A stretch of DNA of 64,000 bases from an uncultured Rhodobiaceae bacterium (GTDB lineage: Bacteria > Pseudomonadota > Alphaproteobacteria > Parvibaculales > Parvibaculaceae), in NCBI GenBank assembly GCA_913057645.1, contig CAJXOU010000003.1, positions 1-64,000 on the forward strand. Reading direction: 5' to 3'. Shown here one piece after another: positions 59,457 to 63,032 of the stretch (positions are counted from its first letter, which is position 1; the number at the start of each line of letters is the position of its first letter). A program made the position numbers and the translations under genes. Below the pieces are notes generated by a model. That model was not told the DNA's origin. It searched no databases and saw nothing but the letters and a program-made list of their open reading frames with translations.

Positions 59457-60107
59457 TCAGGCCGTCCCCCCGGGTCGTGAAGCTTCGGTTCTCAAGGCGA
59501 TGATCGCCGCCTCGGTGCGATTGCGCACGCCGAGCGTTTGCAGGATCGCGTTGACGTGGAGCTTGACGGTCGCAATCGAAATTCCGAGAACCCGCGCAAT
59601 CTCCTGATTGGAACGGCCTTTCCCGATCTCGGCGAGCACTTCCTTCTGGCGGGGTGTCAGCTTCTGGTGACTTGCCGCAGCAAAGGACTGGGAGGACTCC
59701 GGCAGGCCGTCCGCCTGCGCCGTCAGCAATATGTCGGGCACATACCGTCCCCCCATTTCCACGAGCCTGAGGGCGCTCTCGACGAGGTTGATGCCGATAT
59801 TTTTCGGAATGAACCCCGCAGCCCCGAGATCCATGATGTCGCGAATGAAACCGGACGACACGCGATCGCTGAAGACAACCACCCTGGCTTCCGTCGCGGA
59901 GAGAAAGTCCTCAAGCACCGCGATATCGGCAGGCGCCGCCGGACTGCCAATATCGATCAGAATCAGGTCCGAAGCACTCGGGTCGGCCCCGTTGCCGGCG
60001 CGCGGAGGGCAGACAACACGCACACTCCCGGCGGGATAGAGCCGGTTCGCGATTGACGACAGCCCCTCGCAAAAGATCGGCTGTTCGCCGGTCACGAGTA
60101 CACGCAT
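59457..60107 (-). CDS. LuxR/NarL-type response regulator
   Basis: A 216-residue two-domain protein. The N-terminal part is a receiver-like domain with candidate phosphoacceptor Asp52 in LILIDIGSP and conserved Lys102 in GFIPKN. The usual acidic pair at the N-terminus is replaced by GEQP, so phosphorylation may be altered. The C-terminal LuxR HTH has LTPRQKEVLAEIGKGRSNQEIARVLGISIATVKLHVNAILQTLGVRNRTEA. The phosphodonor is unknown and no histidine kinase is adjacent. It is the first gene of the minus-strand set that leads to the nuclease-like and M48 genes. Confidence 0.88.
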   Translation of the reverse strand: MRVLVTGEQPIFCEGLSSIANRLYPAGSVRVVCPPRAGNGADPSASDLILIDIGSPAAPADIAVLEDFLSATEARVVVFSDRVSSGFIRDIMDLGAAGFIPKNIGINLVESALRLVEMGGRYVPDILLTAQADGLPESSQSFAAASHQKLTPRQKEVLAEIGKGRSNQEIARVLGISIATVKLHVNAILQTLGVRNRTEAAIIALRTEASRPGGTA

Positions 60108-60369: not shown

Positions 60370-60446
60370 GACCCCGTAGCTCAGCAGGATAGAGCATCAG
60401 ATTCCTAATCTGAGGGTCGCGCGTTCGAATCGCGCCGGGGTCACCA
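60370..60446 (+). tRNA. tRNA-Arg (anticodon CCT)
   Basis: A 77-nt cloverleaf is readable. The acceptor GACCCCG pairs with CGGGGTC, the D-arm follows TAGCTCAGC, and the anticodon stem TCAGA pairs with TCTGA around the loop TTCCTAA (anticodon CCT, reading AGG). The T-stem GCGCG/CGCGC carries TTCGAAT, and CCA is encoded (60444-60446). It lies between a LuxR-type regulator and a phage-type repressor gene. tRNA genes are frequent integration sites, but no duplicated 3' end was seen. Confidence 0.95.
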
Positions 60447-60770
60447 CTCACATGTTCGATGCGGCCGAAGTCCTCCTCGCGCGCACGGAGCGGGCGCCCC
60501 GGCTTGTCGCGCCCAAGCCGGAGCGAGACGCACTCACCAACCGGATGTCGCAAATGGCGCAAGGGTTGCTCCACTGGTATAACTTTGTTGGTACCTGCTA
60601 AACCCAAAATACAAAGATATCTTTGCATATGTCAACAAGAAATCTTGGCGCCGGGGCATAGCCACCGTGACCGCCCCGTTGCACAGGAAAACCCGCCGGA
60701 ATGTGCCGGAAATCCCTCGATCTGAGGATCGGTCCGTACCGGGACGGTATCCCGACGCGGGTGATTTCTC
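60447..60770. other. Leader region of the S24-family repressor gene
   Basis: The 324 bp between tRNA-Arg and the repressor GTG hold no supportable gene. An AT-rich island lies near 60570-60650 with a perfect palindrome. Two overlapping open frames on either strand have no coding character. It is probably the promoter/operator region of the repressor. Confidence 0.5.
60612..60625. promoter_or_regulatory. Perfect 14-bp palindrome CAAAGATATCTTTG
   Basis: A perfect inverted repeat lies in the AT-rich part of the leader 145 bp upstream of the repressor start. Symmetry, location and low GC favour an operator for the adjacent HTH protein, which would then repress itself. Confidence 0.55.
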
Positions 60771-61493
60771 GTGACGGTCGCGGCGCGCCTGGTCCAGATA
60801 CGCCGATTTCTTGGTCTTTCGCAGAAGGACATGGGCAAGCGAGTCGGCGTCTCGGGAACGACCTGGCAGAACTACGAGCTCGAAAACGCATCGCCAAATG
60901 CGCATGTGCTCGCGCATCTGTCGGGCGAAGGCTTCGACATGAACTGGGTGCTGACCGGCCAGGGCGACATGAGGGGCGGCACGCCGAAGCTGGAAACGAA
61001 GGAGGCGGGCTTCTCCGAACTCGGACCCCGCGAACTGGCGCGCGACGAGATCGGCGGCGCGGGCCGGCATGTGCTGGTGCCGCGGCTGACGCTCCGGACG
61101 CTCGAGGGAGAGACGGGCGGGCGGCTGACCGTCGAGGAGCGGACCATGCTCGACACGATCTCGTTCCGCCGCGACTTCATCGAACGGGACCTGAAGACCG
61201 GAACGACGACCCTCGTCGCGGTCGAAATGCCGGACGACGCGATGCAGCCGACCTTCAATGCGGGCGACATCCTTCTCGCCGACACCTCGGACCCGCAACT
61301 GCGCGGCAGCGGTGTTTACGTCTTCGCGAGCGGCGGCGCGCTGATGGTGAAGCGGCTGCAGATGAAACTCGATGGCGGCCTGACCGTTTCAAGCGACAAT
61401 GCCGAGCGCTACCCGCCCGAAGAGATTGAGCGCGACGCCCTCGACAGGGTAAAGATCGTCGGCCGCGTGATCTGGCGCGGCGGACGCCTCTGA
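60771..61493 (+). CDS. XRE-S24 phage-type repressor lacking the catalytic serine
   Basis: A 240-residue protein with an N-terminal XRE helix-turn-helix (LGLSQKDMGKRVGVSGTTWQNYE). The middle segment NWVLTGQGDM is known from many phage-like repressors. A C-terminal S24 (LexA/CI-type) domain follows at about residues 145-235. In this fold the Ser-Lys dyad is 37 residues apart. Here the Ser position reads Ala157 (MPDDAMQPTF, expected DSM) and Lys194 (MVKRLQ) is intact. Self-cleavage should therefore be impossible, making it a non-inducible repressor. Start GTG 60771. It lies beside tRNA-Arg without other phage genes. Confidence 0.85.
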   Translation: MTVAARLVQIRRFLGLSQKDMGKRVGVSGTTWQNYELENASPNAHVLAHLSGEGFDMNWVLTGQGDMRGGTPKLETKEAGFSELGPRELARDEIGGAGRHVLVPRLTLRTLEGETGGRLTVEERTMLDTISFRRDFIERDLKTGTTTLVAVEMPDDAMQPTFNAGDILLADTSDPQLRGSGVYVFASGGALMVKRLQMKLDGGLTVSSDNAERYPPEEIERDALDRVKIVGRVIWRGGRL

Positions 61494-61516: not shown

Positions 61517-62491
61517 ATGAAGAACCCGTCTCCCCTTGCCGCCGATGCGAAACGCATCCTCGTCATCAAGCATGGCGCCTTCGGCGACGTGATCCAGGCG
61601 GAAGGCGCATTGCACGACATCCGCGAGAACCACCCGGACGCCCATATCGCGGTGCTGACCATGCCCGCCTATCGCGCGCTGCTCGCACGCTGCCCGTATC
61701 TCGACGAGGTGATGGTGGACGAACGCGCGCCGCGCTGGCGCCTCGACAGGATGCTTGCGCTCAGGAAGCGGCTCCGCGACGCGAAGTTCGACATGGTCTA
61801 CGACCTGCAGAACTCGAAGCGCACCGCCTTCTACCATCGCTGGATGCTGAGCGACCGCCGCTGGTCCGGCACGGCGAAAGGATGCAGCCATCCGCACCGC
61901 GCCGAGGAGCCGAAGAAGATCCGGACACTCGACCGTCTCGCCGGGCAGCTCGAAGATGCGGGCCTCACGATACGGCACACGCGAAAGCCCGACGTCTCAT
62001 GGCTCGCGGACGATGTGACGGCGCTGCTCGAAAAGGCGCATGTGATGCGCTCCTATATCGTGCTGGTGCCGGGCTGCTCCGCGCGCCACCCGCAGAAGCG
62101 CTGGCCGCATTACGGCGCGCTCGCGGAGAAACTGATCGATGCGGGATACACCATCGTGATGGCGCCGGGCCCGGACGAGATGGAGCTTGCGCGCACGATC
62201 CCCGGCATCCGCCTGACCGACACGCATGGACTGCTCACCTGGTACGAGCTTGCGGGCGTCTTCAAGCGCGCGCTCTTCGTCGTCGGCAACGACACGGGGC
62301 CGAGCCACCTCGCCGCGCATATCGGCACGCAGGGCCTCGCCCTCTTCGGCAACTACTCGCCGGCCGAGCGCACCGGCATCATCCGCGAGAATTTCGGCGT
62401 GATCGAGGTGGAAGACCTCGCCGCCCTTCCCGTCGAGCGCGTGTTCGACGAAGTGACGCGGCGGATCGAGGCTCACTCGAATTCGGTGTAG
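61517..62491 (+). CDS. GT9 glycosyltransferase (heptosyltransferase-like)
   Basis: A 324-residue GT-B glycosyltransferase of family 9 (ADP-heptose:LPS type). The N-terminal segment RILVIKHGAFGDVIQAEGALHDIRENHPDAHI is diagnostic. The nucleotide-sugar site lies in VVGNDTGPSHLAAHIGTQGLALFGNYSPAERTGI at about residues 250-290. It should add a sugar to lipopolysaccharide core or a related envelope glycan at the cytoplasmic face. Start ATG 61517. It lies 23 bp after the repressor gene, and its 3' end overlaps the convergent DUF6165 gene by 19 bp. The exact acceptor is unknown. Confidence 0.9.
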   Translation: MKNPSPLAADAKRILVIKHGAFGDVIQAEGALHDIRENHPDAHIAVLTMPAYRALLARCPYLDEVMVDERAPRWRLDRMLALRKRLRDAKFDMVYDLQNSKRTAFYHRWMLSDRRWSGTAKGCSHPHRAEEPKKIRTLDRLAGQLEDAGLTIRHTRKPDVSWLADDVTALLEKAHVMRSYIVLVPGCSARHPQKRWPHYGALAEKLIDAGYTIVMAPGPDEMELARTIPGIRLTDTHGLLTWYELAGVFKRALFVVGNDTGPSHLAAHIGTQGLALFGNYSPAERTGIIRENFGVIEVEDLAALPVERVFDEVTRRIEAHSNSV

Positions 62492-62883
62492 GACTTTTCT
62501 TCGACGATGGCCGAACCGGTGAGGAGATTGATCTCCTTCTTGAGCGCGGCGCGCTTGTCGTTCTGCTTGTAGACGGAGCGCGCGAGCTCGACGAAGGCGG
62601 CGCCGAAATCCTTGTCCGCCTCGCACTGGCGGATGTCGTCCTCGATCACCCAGAGCGCTTCGTTGACGGATTTGAGCTCGCCTTCGAGGCGGCGCATCTC
62701 CGCGCTGTCCTCGAGGTTCGCGTTGCGCGCGTCTTCGAGTACGGCAAGTTCGTGACGGACATTGGCGAGCTTCGCCGCGTCCGACATCCGCTCCGACTTG
62801 ATGCGCAGGATGGTGATCTTGTCGATCAGTTCGCCTGGGCCGACCTCGATCATGACGGGCTTGGCGTCTTGCTTCTGTGACAT
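62473..62883 (-). CDS. DUF6165 family protein
   Basis: A 136-residue, highly charged alpha-helical protein matching DUF6165. It carries MIEVGPGELIDKITILRIKSERM, ALWVIEDDIRQCEADKDFGAAFVELARSVY and NDKRAALKKEINLLTGS. No enzymatic motif is present. The gene often neighbours GT9-type glycosyltransferases (family knowledge), which fits the convergent GT9 gene here. The start at 62883 (MSQKQDAKPV) is chosen over the 157-codon frame. Its function is unknown; a role in glycan synthesis is only suggested by context. Confidence 0.85.
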   Translation of the reverse strand: MSQKQDAKPVMIEVGPGELIDKITILRIKSERMSDAAKLANVRHELAVLEDARNANLEDSAEMRRLEGELKSVNEALWVIEDDIRQCEADKDFGAAFVELARSVYKQNDKRAALKKEINLLTGSAIVEEKSYTEFE

Positions 62884-63032
62884 GGAGGCTCCGGCGTGGC
62901 GGTTCTGAACCCGCTCCCTATAGCGCAAAGGGAGCGCCCGTGTCATCTCGCGTGCAATTCGTTAACGCCGTTTGGAAGAAACGCTTGCGCGGGCGCGGCC
63001 GCCCTCCGAAAATCGCGCCCTGACCGAAGCCG

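Follow-up and report, generated by a model that had tools for sequence, protein, structure and literature searches.

At positions 60771..61493 on the forward strand of the window, that is, the whole 64-kb stretch of DNA that was analysed, lies a gene for an XRE-S24 protein. We read it, at a probability of about 0.62, as a domesticated phage-type CI/LexA-like repressor which exerts negative autoregulation on an operon of its own gene and a GT9 glycosyltransferase gene, and from which self-cleavage has been lost repeatedly. Locus conservation, residue changes, operator conservation and the absence of other operator copies were computed, and from these we infer binding, repression, co-transcription with GT9 and loss of cleavage. 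In the proposed course of events, a phage-type CI/LexA-like repressor would have become a fixed chromosomal gene of Parvibaculum, inherited vertically between tRNA-Arg(CCT) and GT9. The protein would most likely dimerise through its S24 domain and, as dimers, bind up to three sites in the gene's own promoter, and this binding would keep the S24 gene and GT9 at a set level. With RecA-stimulated self-cleavage no longer needed, the catalytic Ser and Lys would have decayed repeatedly, along with a Gly close by and the Ala-Gly motif, while the HTH, the fold and the operators were retained. The protein is probably a permanent self-regulator and not a damage-triggered switch.

Genomic Context and Inheritance of the S24 Gene

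The gene has a GTG start and a TGA stop and encodes 240 amino acids, in which Pfam profiles place HTH_19 at residues 5-63 and Peptidase_S24 at residues 130-234, both above the cut-off (51.7 bits for PF00717, with a cut-off of 23.3). To its left lies tRNA-Arg with anticodon CCT (60370..60446, forward strand; ARAGORN), as in 15 of the 15 genomes with the S24 gene. To its right, 23 bp 3' of the gene and on the same strand, begins the gene of a GT9 (heptosyltransferase-family) glycosyltransferase (61517..62491; PF01075, E=4e-25). It directly follows the S24 gene in every genome carrying the latter, and is its probable operon partner, with which it would be co-transcribed. Two reverse-strand genes are found further out. 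One (62473-62946) encodes a DUF6165 protein, whose function is not known, and is convergent with GT9, overlapping its 3' end. The other (59457-60107), upstream of tRNA-Arg, encodes a LuxR-type regulator with a GerE match and no Pfam receiver match, the receiver part of which looks degenerate.

Full-length S24 orthologues at the tRNA-Arg locus were found in 15 of the 27 genomes of the genus Parvibaculum that were searched, most of which are metagenome assemblies; the source genome is counted among the 15. The 14 relatives are 45-92% identical to the source protein (63-92% in 13 of them, 45% in P. indicum) and share the order tRNA-Arg, a 71-bp promoter/operator block, S24 gene and GT9. In P. indicum, which has tRNA-Arg on the left as well, the block has diverged and holds inverted repeats of its own, e.g., ACCAAATTATTTTGGT. 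Several genomes of the genus lack the S24 gene, and in several others GT9 sits in other settings, so the tRNA-S24-GT9 arrangement is confined to one part of the genus. One genome (G008; L044, about 1300-1470) carries a natural deletion which joins the end of the second putative operator (O2, described below) to about codon 188; the third operator (O3) and the gene up to that codon are gone, and the promoter, O2 and GT9 are intact. Since most of the gene was deleted with promoter and GT9 left in place, it is dispensable in that genome. In another genome (G004, L049), a different small ORF (MDVWKGKPRSSNKRSILKTISWRTTASLDTFFIAWLVTG...) is situated between tRNA-Arg and GT9, where other species have the S24 gene.

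The sequence-only reading had seen here a domesticated regulator, perhaps left over from an element once integrated at tRNA-Arg. The idea of domestication agrees with the presence of the gene at one and the same locus in a large part of the genus and with the purifying selection acting on it. Values of dN/dS range from 0.04 to 0.27 (0.04-0.18 in close pairs, 0.21 and 0.27 in two wider pairs) and are lowest in the HTH part, so the gene is not a dying one. The proposed origin found no support: there is no att-like duplication, as no second copy of the tRNA-Arg 3' end exists within 3 mismatches in the 64-kb window, and no integrase or other phage gene lies beside the S24 gene, which is adjoined by the tRNA, GT9 and DUF6165. 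The gap from the tRNA to the S24 start is only 324 bp, and GT9 comes directly after the gene. A prophage scar was rejected on three grounds, the missing att duplication, the missing phage genes and the shared locus across much of the genus. Judged from these sequence comparisons, the S24 gene is a shared, vertically inherited chromosomal gene.

Putative Promoter and Operators

The 71-bp block (60578..60648, forward strand) has a mean column identity of 84% across 13 orthologues, with many invariant positions. Conserved alignment columns, read by eye, point to a promoter of the S24-GT9 operon at 60554..60583 on the forward strand, with a -35 box ATGGCG (TTGGCG in several relatives), an 18-bp spacer and a -10 box TATAAC at 60578-60583; this putative promoter is absent from the list produced by a consensus scan. 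Three putative operator sites follow. O1 (60583..60588, forward strand), adjoining the -10 box, would be a half-site only, CTTTGT, which reads ACAAAG on the other strand. O2, in the middle, is a perfect 14-bp palindrome, CAAAGATATCTTTG (60612..60625), and O3 is an imperfect inverted repeat, CAAGA-AA-TCTTG (CAAGAAATCTTG; 60636..60647). O2 and O3 differ in the spacing of their half-sites. Their centres are 23 bp apart here and 21.5 bp apart in P. indicum, or about two helical turns, as would be fitting for dimers cooperating on one face of the DNA.

The tRNA-Arg and the perfect palindrome had both been remarked upon from the sequence alone, and both are present at 60370-60446 and 60612-60625. 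The accompanying suggestion that the palindrome is an operator has gained credibility from its conservation together with the gene. Being conserved in the orthologues, O2 is not a product of chance; it is also the only site within 2 mismatches in the 64 kb, where 0.05 were expected. A search of the genome for further copies had been suggested, and no other exact one was found: O2 is the sole exact site in 3.75 Mb. Across the genus, a sequence model of the block recovered one copy per genome, restricted to those that carry the S24 gene, together with a partial match in the truncated G008. Neither this model nor single-site pattern searches with O2 and O3 revealed a second target shared within the genus beyond the S24 gene's own promoter; a single loose match, ACAAGAAATATTTG, lies at C27:2603. 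Such motif searches may have missed a weak regulon whose sites are degenerate.

The reverse strand carries a promoter-like sequence, TTGACA-N18-TATTTT, which spans O2 (60606..60635; 10/12 matches, 0.2 expected in shuffles) and is conserved in the orthologues. It could serve as another promoter that fires in the opposing direction, or be operator sequence only. A divergent gene under its control was considered and rejected, as the ORF that starts inside the block is not conserved.

Fold and Repeated Loss of the Cleavage Residues

The AlphaFold2 model of the protein has a mean pLDDT of 75, with the linker below 50. Searched against the PDB, it matches the structures of 186 CI, LexA and lambda CI, that of phage 186 CI being the best. 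The C-terminal domain superposes on S24-fold domains, that of phage 186 CI included, with TM-scores of 0.7-0.8, and whole-chain superpositions are poor because the HTH and S24 domains have no fixed mutual orientation. Most likely, the S24 domain has been kept for dimerisation only.

The absence of the catalytic Ser had been noticed at the outset, with Ala157 in its place and Lys194 kept 37 residues further on, and a family profile alignment agrees. It aligns the contexts of Ala157 (..MPDDAMQPT..) and Lys194 (..LMVKRLQ..) with ..GDSM.. and ..VKKLQ.. of UmuD', which makes residue 157 (codon GCG, 61239..61241, forward strand) the nucleophile position and residue 194 (codon AAG, 61350..61352, forward strand) that of the general base. 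A neighbouring Ser might have supplied the nucleophile instead; none is found near residue 157 in this alignment. In LexA, the substitution S119A abolishes self-cleavage. By analogy, Ala157 alone means that the protein of the source genome should not cleave.

Among the 15 proteins, Ala157 was found in nine and Ser in the other six, including the closest sister (G024, 92% identical), which has TCG where the source genome has GCG; a check for the Ala in orthologues had been suggested, and only part of the genus shares it. Position 194 is Arg in 8/15. Taken together, residues 157 and 194 are A/K in the source protein and L008, S/K in L002, L004, L005, L009 and L011 (5/15 with both residues), S/R in L010, and A/R in L003, L006, L007 and L012-L015. 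Parsimony on the protein tree, on which the ancestral state was reconstructed across some weakly supported branches, requires at least four changes at 157 and at least four at 194, and by our own count five losses of Ser157 if Ser cannot be regained. Ala157 is one of several independent losses and not a fixed feature of the regulator.

The cleavage site itself also appears to have changed. Codons 115-116 (61113..61118, forward strand) encode Thr-Gly where viral relatives, in the alignment, have their Ala-Gly cleavage dipeptide, and Ala-Gly stands at this position in 4/15 orthologues. The loop concerned is about 3 residues longer; it is the part aligned with the least certainty and is modelled with low confidence. 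Only the protein of G025 (L004) combines Ser, Lys and Ala-Gly. Some members of the genus may therefore still have a cleavable protein, namely the five with Ser and Lys, of which that protein also has the dipeptide. An outgroup of 35 proteins (33 viral, 2 chromosomal) has the Ser, the Lys, the Gly two residues before the Ser and the motif Gly throughout, and the motif Ala in 89%. Eight columns are invariant in the outgroup: W59, L61, G63 and M158 stay fixed in Parvibaculum, and G116, G155, S157 and K194 vary. These four varying columns are the only cleavage-related ones of the eight.

The LexA of the host is canonical, with Ser, Lys and Ala-Gly all kept. A third S24 protein of the genome (L225, contig C1) consists of HTH and S24 domains with Ser and Lys intact. 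With these two proteins present, SOS control is independent of the XRE-S24 gene.

Alternative Explanations

The repressor, non-inducible in the sequence-only reading, could still be a regulated switch that is inactivated by an antirepressor or a ligand and not by self-cleavage, like 186 CI with Tum or the Gifsy repressors. In fold it comes closest to 186 CI, there are precedents for antirepressors acting on repressors that do not cleave (PMC3121763), and the conserved reverse-strand promoter-like sequence overlaps O2; however, no conserved small gene adjoins, so an antirepressor would need to be encoded elsewhere, and we regard this explanation as unlikely. A gene in decay without function might likewise account for the losses in the dyad, the internal deletion in G008 and the absence of the gene from several genomes of the genus. 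This is extremely improbable given dN/dS values of 0.04-0.27, open frames in 15 genomes and a strongly conserved operator.

Phage immunity, raised in the sequence-only reading, would have the protein silence incoming phages or prophages that bear the same operators. Related viral proteins do exist, up to 33% identical over their full length (27% for phage D3 CI), and phage switches typically have operators made up of several sites. Yet the viral contigs searched contain neither the operator array nor, in a search with this single protein, a close relative; their exact 15-mer matches to O2 are, by our own estimate, at chance level for so large a collection, and the S24 gene is not inside an element. 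Immunity is therefore very unlikely. Just as low is the probability of a master repressor of gene transfer agent (GTA) activators (gafA/gafYZ) after the manner of RogA, itself an alphaproteobacterial HTH-S24-like repressor without cleavage residues (PMC9632790). The genome does carry DUF6456 (GafA-like) genes, but a sequence search of the surroundings of the DUF6456 loci yielded no operator-like site, and one of these loci has another XRE gene in divergent orientation next to it. Moreover, the RogA sites, GGAA-N4-TTCC, are unlike O2 and O3, and RogA has 213 amino acids. As a separate observation, the locus L228 (contig C172), with a DUF6456/DnaA-domain-IV-like (GafA-like) gene and a divergent XRE gene, is where a RogA-like GTA regulator of this genome would sooner be sought.

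Implications

The S24 repressors known to have lost self-cleavage are single cases. At this locus, S/K, S/R, A/K and A/R forms of one orthologue stand on the same operator in close species, and these natural orthologues make the order and the consequences of cleavage loss directly testable. The findings further indicate that a GT9 glycosyltransferase has a regulator which is as yet unstudied. In a more far-reaching version, which we consider quite unlikely, the repressor-GT9 operon would answer a new signal (a ligand, a partner or a phage antirepressor) and make surface glycosylation switchable, and the genus would have been caught midway in the conversion of a cleavable to a non-cleavable repressor, with several independent intermediates.

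Comparison With Known Systems

The phage S24 CI repressors (D3 CI, PHROG 4) have the same HTH-S24 layout and are homologous over the full length, but Ser and Lys are present in every one of the aligned viral relatives, and Ala-Gly in most. CI of coliphage 186, the best fold match, is about 16% identical in the fold alignment and, unlike the XRE-S24 protein, is a phage gene product with a partner antirepressor. The 186 repressor is inactivated by bound Tum, and the Gifsy repressors are non-cleavable and removed by antirepressors (PMC3121763).

Among chromosomal regulators, RogA of Caulobacter crescentus (CCNA_00080) represses gafYZ via GGAA-N4-TTCC and is missing key cleavage residues (PMC9632790). 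Both it and the present protein are alphaproteobacterial HTH + S24-like repressors with such residues missing; compared by description, they differ in that the strong sites here, ACAA-type palindromes, are found only at the gene's own promoter, and in that the neighbour is GT9. LexA of Synechocystis sp. PCC 6803 no longer has the Ala-Gly site or the Ser of the dyad, and the genes it regulates are non-SOS genes (PMC4759255). It resembles the source protein as an S24-fold repressor without Ala-Gly and dyad Ser, but it has a LexA-type DNA-binding domain and a broad regulon, in contrast to the XRE-type domain and apparently single target here, where cleavage loss varies among species of one genus. 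The XRE-S24 protein joins the known non-cleavable repressors and is distinctive in its mixture of intact and lost catalytic sites at one locus and in its GT9 partner.
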